Assembly: GCA_029012085.1 (NCBI GenBank)
Contig: JAQXLK010000023.1
Location: forward strand, 1 to 47,565
Direction: 5' to 3'
Source: Clostridiales bacterium
Lineage (GTDB): Bacteria; Bacillota; Clostridia; Lachnospirales; Lachnospiraceae
DNA: 47,565 bases
A program made the translations under genes and the position numbers. The notes below the pieces were generated by a model. That model did no database searches. It had not been told where the DNA came from and was given only the letters and a program-made list of their open reading frames with translations. This document shows, in pieces, positions 4,999-47,565 of this stretch; within the stretch, counting starts at the first letter, position 1, and every line of letters starts with the position of its first letter.

Positions 4999-6145
4999 CC
5001 TTCGTCTTTCTCCTTTCCATCAGATGAATACGCATTTTTTTCGACTCCTCTTCAAATCCTTTAATGCTGGAGCCCGGATTATGCAGCAGCAATTGCTTCG
5101 CTTTCTCCTCCATCTTTACCCTAAGCTGGGCTTTTGCCTCTTCAAGGGCAGCAATCCGGTTCTGCGTATTTTGCGCTTTCTCTAATTTGTTAAGCTCATA
5201 TATCTCCTGGTAGTCCTCCATAGCCTTTTCAAACCGGATTCGTTTTTCCTCTGTATATTGTTCTAGTTGCTCTTTCTTTTCATTTACTACACTTTCCAGC
5301 TGTTCTTTCTTCACTTTCACGGAGTCTTCAAGCTGCTCCTTCTTTTCTTTTACAGAACTCTCAAGTTGTTCTCTCTTTTCCTTTGCAGAATTTTCAAGCT
5401 GTTCCTTTTTCTCTTTCACAGAGTTTTCGAGCTGTTCCTTTTTCTCCTTCACAGAACTTTCAAGCTGTTCTTTTTTCTCCTTCACAGAATCTTCCAGCTG
5501 TTCTTTCTTCTCCTTTACTGCGATTTCGATTTCATTCCTTCTCTCAGCAGCCTTTCTTTCAAGTTCTTCTTTTTCTTCCTCAAGGGCAGCATTCAACTGT
5601 TTTGCCAATTCCTCCGCCTTGATTACAAGTGCACGCAAATCCATTGCATCCCGGAACGCATTTGCAAAATCATAAACCATGCAGATTGTCACTACAAAAG
5701 TAAACACACTTAAAAATTCCGGATTCCATGTAGCAATAAATGCTGCCACCGGCTTATGTACCACATATACCATCAAAATGCTCAAAAATCCCCATGCAAT
5801 AGTAGACCTAAGACAAATGTGTCCTTGAAACTGAAACTTTAAGTATCTGTAATCCCAATACCGCACCTTAAAAAGCTTCAGCATTACTACTCCTGTAACA
5901 TACTCCAAAATGGTAGCAGCCACTGCACCCGCAAAATATACTGCAACGGGATGCTGTGCAAAGGGCATGGTTACAAACAAAACCATCACTGCACCACTTC
6001 CATAAAGGGGCAACCAGGGACCTTTCATAAACCCTCTGTTTGTCAATTTCTTTGTCCGAATGGATACATAGGTCGATTCAAAGATCCATCCACAAATACA
6101 GTAGAAATAAAAATAAATCAGCCACGTATTAAAATGTAATTGCAA
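4991..6145 (-). CDS. CmpB-type (putative ABC-transporter type IV) membrane protein with a hendecad-repeat coiled coil
   Basis: A 384-residue protein with two parts. Residues 1-165 hold about five hydrophobic helices and the conserved opening of the ABC_trans_CmpB family (GWIFES, then KGPWLPLYG); the biochemical role of that family is not established. Residues 175-350 are a highly charged helix, presumably cytoplasmic, containing eight consecutive 11-residue units of the pattern SVKEKKEQLEx (residues 209-296). Eleven-residue periodicity favours a nearly straight or slightly right-handed coiled coil rather than a heptad one. Translation must begin at TTG 6145: AAGGTGAGAG precedes it by a few bases and the next ATG would delete the first helix. 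It is the first gene of the MarR/ABC-exporter operon and overlaps the MarR start by eight bases, suggesting it acts with the exporter. Confidence 0.82.
   Translation of the reverse strand: MQLHFNTWLIYFYFYCICGWIFESTYVSIRTKKLTNRGFMKGPWLPLYGSGAVMVLFVTMPFAQHPVAVYFAGAVAATILEYVTGVVMLKLFKVRYWDYRYLKFQFQGHICLRSTIAWGFLSILMVYVVHKPVAAFIATWNPEFLSVFTFVVTICMVYDFANAFRDAMDLRALVIKAEELAKQLNAALEEEKEELERKAAERRNEIEIAVKEKKEQLEDSVKEKKEQLESSVKEKKEQLENSVKEKKEQLENSAKEKREQLESSVKEKKEQLEDSVKVKKEQLESVVNEKKEQLEQYTEEKRIRFEKAMEDYQEIYELNKLEKAQNTQNRIAALEEAKAQLRVKMEEKAKQLLLHNPGSSIKGFEEESKKMRIHLMERRKTKDD
5258..5521 (-). repeat. Eight tandem 33-bp coding repeats
   Basis: Inside the CmpB-type gene, eight successive 33-bp units encode SVKEKKEQLE plus one variable residue (D, S, N or Q). 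Central copies are nearly identical in DNA, so gain or loss of in-frame units by slippage or recombination is possible. Confidence 0.9.
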
Positions 6146-42809: not shown

Positions 42810-43715
42810 TTACGCAATCGTCTCAAACACTGCCTCGATTTCGGCTCTTGTGGCAAGATTTTTTGAAAATGCACTGGCACTTCCCGCTGCAAGCCCCATT
42901 TTGAAAGCCTTCTCTGCCCTGCCTTCTCCTAACAACCCGGCAAGAAATCCTGCCACCATGGAATCGCCCGCTCCTACACCATTTACCAAAGTCCCTTTTG
43001 GTGCCTCGCTCATATATACCTTTCCATCTTCCGCCACAAGCACTGCACCCTCTCCAGCCATGGACACCAGCACGTTGGCTGCTCCCTGTCCCCTAAGTTT
43101 TTTTGCATACGGCAAAACACTTTCCTTCGTCTTAAGCTCTACGCCAAAAATTTCTCCAAGCTCATGATGATTTGGCTTAATCAAAAACGGATGCAGCGGC
43201 AGCACATTAAGCAGCGTATCCTTCGTTGCGTCCACTACAACACGAATACCCTTTCCGGCTAGCATCTGCATAATATCTGCATATATGGAATCCGGAACAG
43301 AAGCCGGTATGCTCCCCGCAAGCACTAAGATATCGTCTTGCTGGAGCTTATTAAGCTTTGCCAGTAGCTCCTCCACTTTTTCCTTTGATATCTCCGGACC
43401 CATTCCATTAATCTCCGTTCCATCCACCGATGTCAGCTTCATATTAATACGGGAAATACCCTCTGGAATTTGAATAAATTCTGTCCGGATTCCAAATTCC
43501 TCTACTCTTCGCTTAATCTCTTCCCCTGTAAAGCCAGCAACATAGGCAAATGCTGTACTCTCATAACCGAGGTTATGAAGCACCATGGAAACGTTAATCC
43601 CTTTTCCACCCGGTAGTATCTTTTCCTCACAGGTTCGATTGGTCATGCCTAATTCAAAGTCCTTCACAGATACAATATAATCCAATGAAGGGTTAAATGT
43701 TACTGTATATATCAC
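42810..43715 (-). CDS. pfkB: 1-phosphofructokinase / PfkB-type hexose-phosphate kinase
   Basis: A 301-residue ribokinase-family enzyme that phosphorylates fructose 1-phosphate (or tagatose 6-phosphate in relatives) with ATP to give a bisphosphate for aldolase. The start is GTG 43715: AAGGAGG lies nine bases before it and the resulting M-I-Y-T-V-T-F-N-P-S-L-D is the standard opening. Motifs: GGKGINVS near residue 36, and GVGAGDSMVAGF near 245 with the catalytic aspartate. No fruA permease or DeoR regulator adjoins it, so fructose itself may enter elsewhere. Aldolase is the next gene upstream, and HPr follows, making a small glycolytic/PTS cluster. Confidence 0.9.
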   Translation of the reverse strand: MIYTVTFNPSLDYIVSVKDFELGMTNRTCEEKILPGGKGINVSMVLHNLGYESTAFAYVAGFTGEEIKRRVEEFGIRTEFIQIPEGISRINMKLTSVDGTEINGMGPEISKEKVEELLAKLNKLQQDDILVLAGSIPASVPDSIYADIMQMLAGKGIRVVVDATKDTLLNVLPLHPFLIKPNHHELGEIFGVELKTKESVLPYAKKLRGQGAANVLVSMAGEGAVLVAEDGKVYMSEAPKGTLVNGVGAGDSMVAGFLAGLLGEGRAEKAFKMGLAAGSASAFSKNLATRAEIEAVFETIA

Positions 43716-43738
43716 TGTCTCTTGCCTCCTTATATATC

Positions 43739-43758
43739 GAATCATAAATTTCTGATTC
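43739..43758. promoter_or_regulatory. Near-perfect 20-bp palindrome upstream of pfkB
   Basis: GAATCA-t-AAATTT-c-TGATTC, symmetric at 18 of 20 positions, lying about 24 bases before the GTG start and next to the ribosome site. A repressor bound here, or a stem in the mRNA, would affect expression. No convincing promoter is seen between it and the terminator at 43861-43907, though TAGAAT occurs nearby. Confidence 0.5.
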
Positions 43759-43860
43759 AATGTACCAGCCACCGAATCATTTTTGAAGTCATCTATTTCT
43801 TATCTAAATATTAACCAATTTCATCTTATTCTATCATAATCAAATCATCAAAAAAAGCAA

Positions 43861-43933: not shown

Positions 43934-44245
43934 CCAATTCACAGCTTCGGATTCTAAAAAATTGTTTTCCATAAGGGCTATTTGCGCGAAATAATGAGCT
44001 GAGCGGAAGAGCTTGCACTTCCATTCGGCGAATATCGCGTTCATCGAAGATGCGTCCGTTGGTACTTAGGCTGCGTTTTTTGCGCGTACAATGAGCCAAG
44101 CGGAAGGGCTTGCACTTCCATTTGGCGAATGTCGCGTCATCGAGTAGCTTGCTACGAGATGCAGCCTTACGTACCACTACGCACGCAACTAAGCGCAAGC
44201 GAGCCCGGTTGGAAACAATTTTATCGAAGCCAAAGCGTCCGCTTT
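43934..44245 (-). repeat. About 300-bp repeat element, copy A
   Basis: Nearly identical (well over 90 percent by eye) to 47195-47505, same orientation. Ends: left arm around 43947-43970 (GATTCTAAAAAATTGTTTTCC) and right arm 44211-44230 (GGAAACAATTTTATCGAAGC) are inverted repeats, more diverged here than in copy B. Inside, a unit beginning GCGGAAG and running through TTGCACTTCCATT is present twice about 97 bases apart. TGGTACTTAGGCTGC has an inverted partner near 44160-44176, here with one extra base. Frames through it on both strands look accidental. It begins about 25 bases after the fba stop and separates fba from its terminator. Confidence 0.9.
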
Positions 44246-44269
44246 GTCAATCCATGAAAAATTTTATTC

Positions 44270-45133
44270 TCAAGCCTTACCTACAGAACCGAATAATTCC
44301 ATCTTTTCCTTAACAGTAGCCTTGATTGCTTCAGCACCTGGAGCTAATAACTTACGTGGGTCAAATCCCTTACCCTCTAAGTCCTTACCAGCCTCAATGT
44401 ACTTACGTGTTGCATCAGCAAATGATAACTGACACTCTGTATTTACGTTAATCTTAGCAACACCTAAAGAGATTGCCTTCTTAATCATATCCTCAGGAAT
44501 ACCTGTACCACCGTGTAATACTAATGGCATATCACCTGTCTTAGCCTGGATTGCATCCAATGTCTCGAAGCTTAATCCTTCCCAGTTCTCTGGATACTTT
44601 CCGTGAATATTACCGATACCTGCTGCAAGCATTGTTACACCAAGATCTGCAACTGCCTTACACTCATCAGGATCTGCACACTCACCCTTACCGATGACAC
44701 CATCTTCTTCACCACCGATAGAACCAACCTCTGCTTCAAGAGAAAGACCCTTCTCATTACAGATTGCAACTAATTCCTTAGTCTTCTCAATATTCTCCTC
44801 GATTGGATAATGAGAACCATCAAACATGATAGAAGAGAAACCAGCCTCGATACAAGCCTTAGCTCCTTCATATGAACCATGGTCTAAGTGAAGTGCTACA
44901 GGAACAGTAATTCCTAAATCTTCAATCATAGCCTTAACCATAGCTGCAACTGTCTTATAACCTGTCATATACTTACCGGCACCTTCAGATACACCTAAGA
45001 TAACCGGACTCTTTAACTCCTCTGCAGTTAAAAGAATTGACTTTGTCCACTCAAGATTGTTGATGTTGAACTGACCTACTGCATACTTACCAGCTTTTGC
45101 CTTTGTTAACATTTCTTTTGCTGAAACTAACAT
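44270..45133 (-). CDS. fba: Class II fructose-bisphosphate aldolase
   Basis: A 287-residue zinc aldolase that splits fructose 1,6-bisphosphate (or tagatose 1,6-bisphosphate) into dihydroxyacetone phosphate and glyceraldehyde 3-phosphate. Motifs: ALHLDHGS with catalytic D84 and zinc ligand H85, GIGNIHGKYP with H177, VLHGGTGIP with H207, and KINVNTE in the phosphate-binding region. The start ATG has GGAGG eight bases before it. The codon use is strongly biased toward a small set (many CTTA/AACC, TAAG patterns), as in a highly expressed gene. A structured leader of about 110 bases precedes it. Downstream is repeat copy A, then a terminator, then pfkB. Confidence 0.96.
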   Translation of the reverse strand: MLVSAKEMLTKAKAGKYAVGQFNINNLEWTKSILLTAEELKSPVILGVSEGAGKYMTGYKTVAAMVKAMIEDLGITVPVALHLDHGSYEGAKACIEAGFSSIMFDGSHYPIEENIEKTKELVAICNEKGLSLEAEVGSIGGEEDGVIGKGECADPDECKAVADLGVTMLAAGIGNIHGKYPENWEGLSFETLDAIQAKTGDMPLVLHGGTGIPEDMIKKAISLGVAKINVNTECQLSFADATRKYIEAGKDLEGKGFDPRKLLAPGAEAIKATVKEKMELFGSVGKA

Positions 45134-45160
45134 GTAAAAATCCTCCGTATTCTAAAAATT

Positions 45161-45247
45161 ATTGCTCCGCCGTATGATTTTTCATACAGTCAGAAGCCAT
45201 CGAGGTTCCGACACCTCCGGCAAATGGAGTTCTCCAATCTGCACACT
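45161..45247 (-). promoter_or_regulatory. Structured 5' leader of fba
   Basis: Between the predicted transcription start and the ribosome site the minus strand folds into clear stems: CCAT...GAGGT-gtcgga-ACCTC-g-ATGG (45197-45227), then GCTTC-tga-CTGTATG-aaaaat-CATACGG-c-GGAGC (45164-45197), and a small GGAG/CTCC stem at 45226-45235. No U-run follows, so it is not a simple terminator, and it lacks T-box AGGGTGGNACCGCG. It is a candidate cis-acting RNA regulating aldolase or stabilising its message. Confidence 0.55.
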
Positions 45248-45254
45248 TGTCCTT

Positions 45255-45260
45255 ATTATA
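45255..45260 (-). promoter_or_regulatory. -10 box of the fba promoter
   Basis: TATAAT on the minus strand in the context GGGGTATAATAAGG, 122 bases before the start codon. The -35 at 17 bases is TTTATT, weak. Confidence 0.6.
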
Positions 45261-45324
45261 CCCCAAGCCCAGTTAAAAATAAAGGAAAATTTTACAGTAA
45301 GTATGCATTTTAAGAAAATTATGG

Positions 45325-45330
45325 TATAAT
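45325..45330 (+). promoter_or_regulatory. Extended -10 promoter of the Ig-like protein gene
   Basis: TGG-TATAAT on the plus strand, 35 bases before the start codon; the -35 at 17 bases is TATGCA, poor. Divergent from the fba promoter 65 bases away. Confidence 0.6.
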
Positions 45331-45364
45331 AAGCTTAAATCAGGTTACACAAAGGAGGTTTTTC

Positions 45365-45706
45365 ATGAGCAGACAGTTTATCGAGATTGAAGACATTCCG
45401 AAGGGATACGAAAACAGAGTAAAACAGAATCTTAGTTTTAAAACAGGCAAATTTGTGTGGCGCTGCCGCTTTACTACAGCTTTAGATCCTAGTACTATTA
45501 ACTCAGACAATCTATATGTAGTAAGTGAAACCGGGCAGCGAATTGAAACCACATTTACCTATAATGATGCCAATATGGAGATCGAGGTGGAACCTCTTGA
45601 TGCTTACGCCAAAGATACAGATTACTTCCTGCATATTACGACCAGGGTAAAATCCAGAGGTGGACAGAATTTAAAAGAACCGGTGGAGATAAAATTCCGC
45701 CTATAA
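45365..45706 (+). CDS. Small SbsA-type Ig-like (Big_5) protein, no export signal
   Basis: A 113-residue protein. Residues 30-113 match the Big_5/SbsA Ig-like pattern: FTTALDPSTINSDNLYVVSE, then TFTYNDANMEIEVEPL and TDYFLHITTRVKSRGGQNL, ending in VEIKFRL. That domain normally sits in secreted proteins, as an Ig-fold spacer with DPSTI-NxxN hallmark, but here there is no signal peptide, helix or anchor, so the protein should stay in the cytosol. Ribosome site AAAGGAGG is strong. Function unknown. It is one of the few plus-strand genes and is followed by its own terminator. Confidence 0.75.
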   Translation: MSRQFIEIEDIPKGYENRVKQNLSFKTGKFVWRCRFTTALDPSTINSDNLYVVSETGQRIETTFTYNDANMEIEVEPLDAYAKDTDYFLHITTRVKSRGGQNLKEPVEIKFRL

Positions 45707-45735
45707 CGAATGCAGCATATTAATCATAAACAAAC

Positions 45736-45799
45736 AGCTGCTACGCGAAAGACTCTTCCAGACAAACATTATCCTTCGTGTAGCAGCTATTTTATTTTT
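45736..45799 (+). terminator. Terminator shared by the Ig-like gene and the convergent amidase gene
   Basis: AGCTGCTACGCGAA pairs with TTCGTGTAGCAGCT (one mismatch) around a 25-base loop, followed on the plus strand by ATTTTATTTTT. It lies 30 bases after the plus-strand stop and just before the end of the minus-strand amidase gene. Confidence 0.85.
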
Positions 45800-46568
45800 C
45801 CCCTGTTCTATATTTTTCCCGATATTCCTCCACATATCCCTTAAAGACTTCCCAACGGTCTTCATGCTCCACAAAATATTTCGGACAGTTCTTTCCGGTT
45901 ACATCATAATGCCGAATTAACTGACTCATATCCATATGATAATAATTCATAAGCTGCGCCACTAAATACACGCAATTATTATAAGTAGCATCATTAAAAT
46001 TCCCGCCTTCATCCGGATGACACATCTCAATGGAAATACAAAATTCATTATAACTGTTTGAACAGTATGCCATCTCATTACAAGGCACACATTGGATAAT
46101 CTCGCCATCTAAGCCAATCACAAACTGTGCACTGGCATAGGTCTCTCCTGTATCCTTCAGATTTTCAAAATAATTACGATTCTGCTCTGCTGTAGAGCCG
46201 GGATTTGCTGTATAGTGAATAACAATATACTGCGGTGTTGTGGTAAGAGCAAGTCCCGGTCTGGAATAGGAATTCACAGTCAAAAATTCTTCTGAAATCG
46301 GCAAATCCGGGAAAAGTGCCGCTGCCCCAATAATCGGGTCCGGCTCCGGATAGGACTCCTGCAACGTCTCTTTCTCTTTCATTTGCGAGTAAAAATGAAT
46401 AACCGAAAATATCACTGCTCCAAATACCAGTAGGCAGGATATTCCAAACAAACCGACCGTTATAAGCCTTTTTTCCCGCTTTTTTGTATTATTTGTACCA
46501 GAATTTTCCCGTCTGGTCTTTCGCTTTTCATTTGTATCGGTATAAAATTGCTTGTACTGTTTCTTCAT
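45792..46568 (-). CDS. Membrane-anchored N-acetylmuramoyl-L-alanine amidase (Amidase_2)
   Basis: A 258-residue peptidoglycan hydrolase. A very basic cytoplasmic tail (1-34), a single helix (ITVGLFGISCLLVFGAVIFS, about 36-55), a short stalk, then an Amidase_2/PGRP-type domain from about 112. Zinc ligands are H118 in IVIHYTANPG, H220 in LIRHYDVTG and C228 in KNCPK; EMCHPDEGGNF is also typical. It cleaves the bond between MurNAc and L-Ala outside the membrane and remains anchored. The start overlaps the stop of the GIY-YIG gene (ATGA), with AAGGATG upstream, so the two are cotranslated. Confidence 0.9.
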   Translation of the reverse strand: MKKQYKQFYTDTNEKRKTRRENSGTNNTKKREKRLITVGLFGISCLLVFGAVIFSVIHFYSQMKEKETLQESYPEPDPIIGAAALFPDLPISEEFLTVNSYSRPGLALTTTPQYIVIHYTANPGSTAEQNRNYFENLKDTGETYASAQFVIGLDGEIIQCVPCNEMAYCSNSYNEFCISIEMCHPDEGGNFNDATYNNCVYLVAQLMNYYHMDMSQLIRHYDVTGKNCPKYFVEHEDRWEVFKGYVEEYREKYRTGEK

Positions 46569-46888
46569 GTTGTTTCATCCTTCGTATCCAGCCGGACAGA
46601 CTCCATAATCCGGGAACATTCCCGTCTTACTTCCTCCGGCATATGTTCAAACAGCTTAAGCTTGTCCTTCCTTTTAAGCTGTTTTACTGCGTATTCCCGT
46701 TTCATAGCCTCCTGTCTGGTAGCAAAAACCTCATAATACACCAGTCTGACCGGAAGTCTTGCTCTCGTATATTTTGCTCCTTTTCCCTGGTTATGACACC
46801 GCATCCGTTCCTCTAACTGATTCGTCCACCCGGTATAAAAGGTCCCATCCCCGCACTCCACGATATACGTATATGCTGTATCTTCCAT
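46565..46888 (-). CDS. GIY-YIG nuclease-domain protein, UPF0213/YazA family
   Basis: A 107-residue single-domain protein: YTYIVECGDGTFYTGWT carries the GIY-YIG pair, followed by LEERMRCHNQGKGAKYTR with the catalytic arginine region and later EAMKREYAVKQLKR. Members are small predicted endonucleases or DNA-repair accessory proteins of uncertain role. ATG 46888 with AGGTGAGG before it is chosen over GTG 46897. It overlaps the amidase gene by four bases. Confidence 0.9.
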   Translation of the reverse strand: MEDTAYTYIVECGDGTFYTGWTNQLEERMRCHNQGKGAKYTRARLPVRLVYYEVFATRQEAMKREYAVKQLKRKDKLKLFEHMPEEVRRECSRIMESVRLDTKDETT

Positions 46889-47029
46889 TTTCCTCACCTG
46901 TCTTCTCTTATATAAAGCCTTTGAGCAATCCTATTGTATCCTAACAAAAGCACAGACACACCGCATCCGTCCCTGACAAAAATCTGTTAAAACCTTCAAA
47001 GGCGAATTCTCTATATACCTTACTATATG
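46889..47029. other. Intergenic sequence upstream of the GIY-YIG gene
   Basis: No gene seen. A minus-strand TACAAT in the context GGATACAATAGG (around 46935-46947) could be a -10 box, with no good -35. The rest of the 46889-47514 gap is the 45-bp tandem array and repeat copy B. Confidence 0.35.
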
Positions 47030-47172
47030 CCAATTATCAATATGTGTGATACTTTTTATAGCAATTTCGCTCTACCAAATACCAATATGTGTAATACCTT
47101 TTATAGCAATTCCTCTCTGCCGAATACCAATATATGTGATACCTTTTATAGCCATTTCGCTCTGCCAAATAC
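47030..47172. repeat. Three tandem 45-bp units plus a partial fourth
   Basis: Units at 47030-47074, 47075-47119 and 47120-47164 share the pattern CCAAATACCAATATGTG, then GATACCTTTTATAGCAATTTC and GCTCTG, differing by a few bases each; 47165-47172 starts a fourth. Exact 45-base period without spacers, directly beside repeat copy B. No protein role is suggested by the frames on either strand. Confidence 0.9.
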
Positions 47173-47194
47173 AAAACGGTATTTTTTAGCTTTA

Positions 47195-47505
47195 CCAGTT
47201 CACAGCTCTGGATTCGATAAAATTGTTTTCCATAAGGGCTATTTGCGCGAAATAATGAGCCGAGCGGAAGGGCTTGCACTTCCATTCGGCGAATATCGCG
47301 TTCATCGAAGATGCGTCCGTTGGTACTTAGGCTGCGTCCTTTGCGCGTACAATGAGCCAAGCGGAAGGGCTTGCACTTCCATTTGGCGAATGTCGCGTCA
47401 TCGAGTAGCTTGCTACGAGATGCAGCCTTAGTACCATTACGCACGCAACTAAGCGCAAGCGGGCCCGGTTGGAAACAATTTTATCGAATCCAGAGCGTCC
47501 GCTTA
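47195..47505 (-). repeat. About 300-bp repeat element, copy B
   Basis: The better-preserved copy. Terminal inverted repeats of about 25 bases: left CTCTGGATTCGATAAAATTG then TTTTCC (47206-47231), right GGAAACAATTTTATCGAATC then CAGAG (47471-47495), matching apart from one extra T. An internal duplication (GCGGAAG to GGCGAAT, at 47264 and 47361, 97 bases apart) and an internal inverted pair, TGGTACTTAGGCTGC (47321-47335) with GCAGCCTTAGTACCA (47422-47436), give a large fold-back potential. It is richer in GC than its surroundings. It starts ten bases past a minus-strand stop codon. Confidence 0.9.
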
Positions 47506-47514
47506 GCCAAAACC

Positions 47515-47565
47515 CTAAATAAAATCAAATGTAGCCTGACTATACTCCAAATTCTGATACTCCAT
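47515..47565 (-). CDS. Possible 3' end of a gene entering from beyond the window
   Basis: On the minus strand 16 codons (MEYQNLEYSQATFDFI) lead to a TAG at 47515-47517, with the frame open to the window edge. It may be the tail of a longer gene, or chance; too short to judge. Confidence 0.4.
   Translation of the reverse strand: MEYQNLEYSQATFDFI

Follow-up and report, generated by a model that had tools for sequence, protein, structure and literature searches.

A contig of 47,565 nucleotides from a Clostridiales bacterium of the Lachnospiraceae, referred to here in its full length as the window, carries two copies of a repeated element that probably belongs to a family of REP- or BOX-like hairpins, spread by transposition in this species and with a core kept by selection. 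The two copies, designated A and B, are 95% identical over 310 bases (43934-44245 and 47195-47505), in agreement with the near-identical pair described in the original prediction, and are but two of dozens of copies, at least 35 core matches being present in the window genome. The features referred to below are the following.

42810-43772, minus strand: pfkB-family kinase gene, 5′ end towards copy A (Pfam PF00294)
43934-44245, plus strand: copy A, with stem, core and modules; outer transposon termini eroded (95% identity to copy B)
43944-43970, plus strand: left arm of the outer stem in copy A, with the foot ACA before it at 43941-43943
43974-44206, plus strand: copy A conserved core and inserted modules, with GNRA hairpin GC[GCAA]GC at 44193-44200 (core model)
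44207-44236, plus strand: right arm of the outer stem in copy A, with the foot GTCC after it at 44237-44240
44270-45133, minus strand: class II fructose-bisphosphate aldolase gene, 3′ end adjoining copy A (Pfam PF01116)
47195-47505, plus strand: copy B, likewise with eroded outer termini (95% identity to copy A; folding)
47205-47231, plus strand: left arm of the outer stem in copy B, with the foot ACA before it at 47202-47204
47235-47466, plus strand: copy B conserved core and inserted modules, with GNRA hairpin GC[GCAA]GC at 47453-47460 (core model)
47248-47315, plus strand, limits approximate: copy B first hairpin module M1, missing from the short form of ~160 bp
47340-47399, plus strand, limits approximate: copy B second M1, within the P3 hairpin, origin of the 97-bp-spaced duplication
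47400-47421, plus strand: copy B additional small hairpin ATCGAGTAGCTTGCTACGAGAT; copy A equivalent at 44139-44160
47467-47496, plus strand: right arm of the outer stem in copy B, with the foot GTCC after it at 47497-47500
47515-47565, minus strand: probable gene 3′ end (...EYSQATFDFI stop) adjoining copy B and running off the contig end (translation)

Folding of positions 47205-47496 yielded z-scores of -11.2 on the plus strand and -10.4 on the minus strand, none of 200 shuffled sequences doing as well in either case. The stem of copy B contains an exact inverted pair of 24 nt (47205-47228 and 47473-47496) that reaches 44 nt at 80% when extended. This pair had been taken for 25-bp terminal inverted repeats; the repeat itself is real and represents the top of the stem rather than a transposon terminus. 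The 97-bp-spaced internal duplication also predicted turned out to be one hairpin module occurring twice (47255 and 47352). As to the predicted 15-bp internal inverted pair, the best candidate tested (47322-47336 against 47421-47435) matches imperfectly, at 13 of 15 positions, and the exact 15-nt inverted pairs of copy B are confined to its two arms. None of four element open reading frames matched a Pfam family at E≤0.01, as expected from the predicted absence of a credible gene, and a protein-coding element was ruled out on this basis. A known Rfam family was likewise ruled out, a scan of the window returning a tRNA as its sole match and a scan of four loci at E≤10 returning nothing that overlapped an element. 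Pattern scans with a window-specific motif found no match in genome contigs, a broader motif retrieved 31 stretches from four MAGs, and the scan of viral contigs was negative. No published description of the element was found in the open-licence PMC papers searched.

The younger copies in the window genome are MITEs bounded by inverted termini of the GTTACTGTTCAC type. In the two intact copies measured (L025 and L007), the true ends lie 28-30 bp outside the inverted pair of 24-25 nt and ~18-21 bp outside the ends originally proposed. An 8-bp target duplication was exact in 8 of 32 candidate end pairs, and 11 of the 32 matched at seven or more of the eight bases, compared to 4 of 992 swapped pairs; some of the 32 pairings are spurious, including one of the 11 (L008). 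The inverted termini and target duplications thus show MITE-type movement in this genome, and the mobile-element half of the original prediction stands in part, with many copies and with element ends situated further out than supposed. At copies A and B themselves, neither intact termini nor target duplications were recognizable, and the flanks of copy A bear only a vague likeness to the GTTACTTTTCACA-type ends seen where copies are intact. A coreless form of 54-59 bp has likewise transposed in the window genome, indicating that the core is not required for transposition. In genome G151, the terminus tested gave no target duplication in 25 cases (11 of 600 when swapped), and the real ends may be further out.

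IS-like ends with the same termini as the MITE copies were found on four other contigs of the window genome (C317, C102, C369 and C133), and an IS of this kind would be the source of the transposase. Those on C317 and C369 have an 8-bp flank in common, as read by eye; C102 and C133 have no clean common flank. No transposase was reached through the shared terminus in the window genome, where the IS ends run to contig ends and the interior is missing from the assembly. Querying 26 genomes of the genus with the IS ends produced, besides the window genome, only one match of 40 bases, and among the 100 matches listed of the 157 obtained in a terminus scan of G151 there was no pair spaced by 1-3 kb. 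Several contigs of the window genome start within the interior of the element, which may consequently explain some of the assembly breaks.

What unites the family is a conserved core of ~85 nt that may be enlarged by additional hairpin modules and retains its shape across many genera. The core was present in all 26 genomes of the genus (1 to 109 matches per genome), within the family in 152 of 397 genomes and in 135 of the 334 genera sampled, and in 10 of 391 genomes class-wide, all ten being family members. Two of four named carriers are labelled Lachnospiraceae, the remainder being assigned to Clostridiaceae and Clostridium; the carrier group is probably this one bacterial family. In a first alignment set, 94.8% of cells were paired and 21 of 23 core pairs were doubly changed (0 of 500 shuffles); in a second set, which has six rows in common with the first, the values were 91.7% and 22 of 23. 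One loop is a GNRA tetraloop in 154 of 157 distinct cores, counting ungapped loops only and excluding three gapped-loop rows.

The arms behave differently. In most sampled genomes, outer stems often differ between copies and are yet self-complementary. When arms were swapped among the copies of four genomes (G247, G611, G301 and G221), an element's own arms paired better than all swaps in 40 of 42 cases, and left-arm similarity among copies was near chance in the same four genomes, a point against a plain MITE. In G127, median identity between copies was 98% in the core and 68% in the arms (57% when shuffled), and own arms paired at 84%. At orthologous sites of two species, 36 of 765 bases had changed in the core, 70 of 610 in the arms and 149 of 1397 in the outer flank. 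The core was less changed than the arms overall and in seven of nine orthologous elements; in the other two (L310/L338 and L311/L342) it was slightly more changed.

Position relative to genes was examined in a pool of 185 elements, left once matches shorter than 75 nt and repeated hits to a single locus had been removed; 180 of them had both arms, 179 both 75-nt arms, 169 flanks of 400 bp and 155 both neighbors called. Since genomes were picked by strong matches, sampling in these pools is not random, and copies sharing a genome are not independent of each other; the p values are accordingly approximate. Among the 169 elements, gene 3′ ends up to 130 bp away were only antisense to the core strand in 82, only sense in 24, of both kinds in nine and lacking in 54. 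Copies A and B are both antisense to the adjacent gene 3′ end. All 16 opposite pairs lying within 500 bp of each other were divergent. The 3′-end bias could arise from insertion preference.

The most serious rival, possible though on balance unlikely, is a purely selfish MITE or palindrome in which template-switch mutation keeps the pairing and purifying selection sets the position by removing insertions at other places. Terminal inverted repeats and target duplications suit it, as do pair changes that are strand-symmetric, and template switching is able to create hairpins and to maintain them (PMC8794818). Against it, the core mismatches, the bulge and the GNRA loop have survived in places where correction would remove them, the core is less changed than the arms as seen above, and the orientation bias is left unexplained.

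A functional non-coding RNA, acting in cis or in trans, that is made from the core strand and hitch-hikes on MITEs is an unlikely alternative reading, close to the second half of the original prediction, a conserved structured RNA. Covariation over many genera and the near-universal GNRA loop were found, bear out the structural half of that prediction in part and speak for this reading; that loop, and the G.A mismatches retained within the stems, occur on one strand only, and the smaller overall change of cores than of arms at orthologous sites fits as well. However, G.T is no commoner than A.C in the core (55 and 67, equally rare), so that the pairing, strand-symmetric in its covariation, is no pointer to a one-strand RNA and leaves the RNA itself unproved. 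A tRNA control gave 3 G.U against 1 A.C, too small a count, and a lean towards the core strand was seen only in the arms of the window genome (28 versus 5). The Rfam searches add no match. The prevailing antisense orientation near gene 3′ ends is a further objection, as an RNA would usually need a promoter of its own.

Doubtful, but with distinct consequences, is the proposal that the core is itself a mobile hairpin tip that lands at the apex of a palindrome, the arms being new at each site. The core would either enter pre-existing inverted repeats or have its flank copied as an inverted arm by a template switch. The swap results and near-chance left arms of the four genomes suggest such a process, as does the disparity between core and arms in G127; G127 arms that are more alike than chance argue that arms partly travel with the core. 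If true, the element would spread unlike TIR-based transposition, with the TIR-bearing MITEs of the window genome as one of several vehicles.

It is very improbable that these are REP elements proper, moved as single-stranded hairpins by an IS200-like (RAYT) transposase: elements often sit behind stop codons, opposite pairs are inverted as described and the feet ACAG..CGTC occur in 66 of 179 elements, but a Y1 transposase is present in only 8 of 21 element-rich genomes and missing from 13, some nearly complete, it is present in 13 of 15 genomes in which no core was matched, GTAG in the arms (19 left, 29 right of 179) is no commoner than scrambled motifs, and the window-genome copies have DDE-type target duplications. 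RAYT/IS200 mobility is thus unsupported by the distribution of Y1 transposases.

The probable explanation is a transposition-spread hairpin family with a selected core. After insertion, the element would act in a REP- or BOX-like manner as a very stable stem-loop behind a gene, where it may affect transcript ends or read-through; alternatively, the DNA hairpin may serve as a site for a host protein. Selection would retain the core, and stem pairing is probably upheld in part via template switching during replication.

Correia, RUP and Nezha elements have inverted termini, target duplication, no gene and high base pairing, all of which the present element shares; unlike them, it combines one core with termini that differ between species, and in several genera copies have no termini in common. 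The three are introduced as bacterial MITEs in PMC3049150. The same paper describes BOX elements of Streptococcus pneumoniae as end modules flanking a variable number of inner modules; in architecture, the only aspect compared, ours resembles them as a composite modular repeat with a predicted stable stem-loop and many copies (PMC3049150). It differs from BOX in host, in its strongly conserved GNRA-bearing core and family-wide spread, in the copy-specific outer stems of most sampled genomes and in its strand bias behind gene 3′ ends. With REP/BIME and RAYT systems, as portrayed in PMC2817692 and PMC12306157, it shares palindromes that lie outside genes, in some cases shortly after a stop codon, as well as frequent inverted pairs and complementary stem changes. 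It is, in contrast, much longer than REP/BIME, with a branched core of 85 nt and no GTAG enrichment, and 13 of 21 carriers do without the Y1 transposase.

Comparing core with arms inside single elements makes the family a natural test of whether the pairing of long hairpins is kept up by selection or by template switching. Should the element influence the 3′ ends of transcripts, ordinary housekeeping genes would be affected in many of the bacteria that carry it.

The original prediction had described two near-identical elements in the window, and copy A (43934-44245) and copy B (47195-47505) indeed share 95% identity at those coordinates. A genome search revealed many further copies in the window genome (G000), either short (~160 bp), long (up to ~420 bp) or partial. 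All complete copies have in common a hairpin flanked by a left and a right arm, to which the long forms add extra hairpin modules. The 97-bp-spaced duplication noted in copy B was likewise confirmed and consists of the optional hairpin module M1 present twice, at 47255 and 47352. The 15-bp internal inverted pair exists imperfectly, the best tested candidate pairing at only 13 of 15 positions. As to the terminal inverted repeats, the inverted pair is real but forms the top of the stem, the real ends of the element lying 28-30 bp outside of it in the two intact copies measured. The M1 module (ATGAGCCAAGYGGA..TCCRYTTGGCGA) was also observed outside the element, as a separate hairpin in related species (loci L036, L039 and L041; genomes G017, G008 and G022), with weaker matches at L033 and L048. 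Copy B is adjoined by a 45-bp tandem repeat (3.2 copies, 47028-47172) that is open in-frame on both strands; two ORFs covering this repeat yielded no match in Pfam. Another tandem repeat, with a period of 33/66/99 bp, occupies positions 5265-5518.

Mobility of the element was demonstrated by termini and target duplications found in the same genome, that of the window. Examples of termini are GTTACTGTTCACTCGTTATC, GTTACAGTACAGACGTTATC and GTTACTTTTCACA, and 8-bp duplications outside of the termini include CATTCTTA, TTTCCTAA, ATCATATC, CAATGGTG and AGCAACGC. When target duplications were scored systematically, 11 of 32 candidate end pairs (spurious pairings included, one of which, L008, is counted among the 11) matched at 7 or 8 of 8 positions, 8 of them exactly, compared to 4 of 992 swapped pairs. 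Dispersed in addition were core-less palindromes of 54-59 bp made up of two termini only (L104, L106, L109, L111, L113, L116 and L133). Three of these seven displayed exact target duplications, two matched at 7/8, and two had no match in the register tested. These palindromes are core-less derivatives that still moved, and the termini thus suffice for movement. IS-like ends carrying the same termini as the MITEs were located on four contigs of the window genome:

IS ends with MITE termini in G000
C317, 1-217: IS end with MITE termini (L134)
C102, 1-171: IS end with MITE termini (L130)
C369, 1-141: IS end with MITE termini (L143)
C133, 4369-4507: IS end with MITE termini (L137)

Comparison by eye showed the flank GTGAAAAG to be common to the contig ends C369 and C317, as would be expected for two ends of one insertion. 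No clean 8-bp flank was common to C133 and C102, and the IS interior was not found in the window-genome assembly.

The hairpin core (~85 nt) is demonstrably conserved, and related species were found to carry the same core, flanked by termini that differ markedly. A core model, A1, was built from 22 cores and then used for wide searches; 12 of its 23 pairs were doubly changed, and its covariation score was reached by none of 500 shuffles. Within the genus, all 26 genomes carried the core, with 1 to 109 matches per genome and 35 in that of the window (scoring a maximum of 150 candidates in each). Within the family, where 11 candidates were scored per genome, it was present in at least 152 of 397 genomes and at least 135 of 334 genera. 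Across the class, 10 of 391 genomes carried it, all 10 from the same family, and no match was found in the ~375 genomes outside of the family (16 of the 391 being members, as judged from listing order). Named core-carrying MAGs are RGIG5049 and RGIG5081 (titled Lachnospiraceae), CAMHJT (titled Clostridiaceae) and CAMWYM (titled Clostridium); with titles so mixed, we infer the family name of the carriers. In two sets of aligned core matches, which overlap by 6 rows and, being fitted to the model, lean towards its structure, 94.8% and 91.7% of cells were paired and 21/23 and 22/23 pairs were doubly changed. None of 500 shuffles was as good on any of five measures in either set. Of the 157 distinct cores whose loop is ungapped, 154 had GNRA at the end of a small hairpin. 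Genome G151 harbors three cores in direct tandem at L236 (176-bp spacing) and at L230 (211-bp spacing), as well as 157 matches to GTCAATTTGCACA at ≤1 mismatch (control, 0).

In most sampled genomes, the outer stem is individual to each copy. An element's own arms beat every swap in 10/10 cases in G247 and G411, 8/8 in G301, 12/13 in G221, 10/11 in G611, 10/13 in G101, 6/6 in G127 and 4/4 in G370, and only in 12/31 in the window genome and 2/5 in G151, where arms are shared between copies. Median identity in G127 was 98% for the core and 68% for the arms (shuffled arms, 57%). At nine orthologous elements from two species of one genus, differences amounted to 36/765 bases in the core (20 of the 36 coming from one decayed element), 70/610 in the arms and 149/1397 in the outer flanks, the core having changed less than the arms in seven of the nine. 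The feet ACAG..CGTC were found in 66 of 179 elements (scrambled motifs: mean 1.3, maximum 12), with 31/31 in the window genome, 7/8 in G411 and none in G127, G247, G611, G101 and G301.

Elements often lie behind genes. Among the 169 elements with enough flank, and counting simple open frames rather than curated genes, a 3′ end was present within 130 bp only opposite to the core strand (that on which the GNRA loop is read) in 82, only on the same strand in 24, on both in 9 and on neither in 54; by case, 91 were opposite vs 33 on the same strand (p ~2e-7). Within 80 bp, the window genome had 20 of the former to 1 of the latter. Copy A lies ~25 bp behind the stop of an aldolase gene, and copy B ~10 bp from that of a probable gene truncated by the contig end. 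All 16 neighboring pairs in opposite orientation within 500 bp were divergent and 4 more shared one orientation, some pairs being copies of one composite within the same genome. The neighbors at 11 element loci are what we take to be ordinary genes (e.g., rplL, htpG, ABC transporter and nadE-like ones), none of which we recognized as a transposase.

Only one strand carries the GNRA loop and recurring G.A mismatch pairs, an indication that this core strand is the one that folds. Selection at the RNA level alone should tolerate G.U. In the core helices, G.T was no commoner than A.C (55 vs 67; 26 vs 32 and 32 vs 37 per set), and counts in the arms were 89 vs 83 outside the genus and 18 vs 18 in the genus without the window genome; only in the window genome did the arms favor the core strand, at 28 vs 5. 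A tRNA control gave 3 vs 1, a very small count. Maintenance of the pairing may thus operate on DNA, for example through template switching (excerpt of PMC8794818).

A REP system was rejected: Y1 transposases were absent from 13 of 21 element-rich genomes, nearly complete ones included, and 13 of the 15 genomes that lacked a core match did have one; in the arms, GTAG did not exceed scrambled motifs in frequency. Literature on Lachnospiraceae with MITE or REP yielded nothing relevant, and no description of the element was seen among the open-licence papers listed. The closest analogues described, going by excerpts of the sources, are the pneumococcal BOX (PMC3049150) and REP elements (PMC12306157, PMC2817692). 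In the window genome, an ordinary MITE is the vehicle and a widely conserved hairpin core its unusual passenger, the outer stem of which is free to vary provided that pairing stays.
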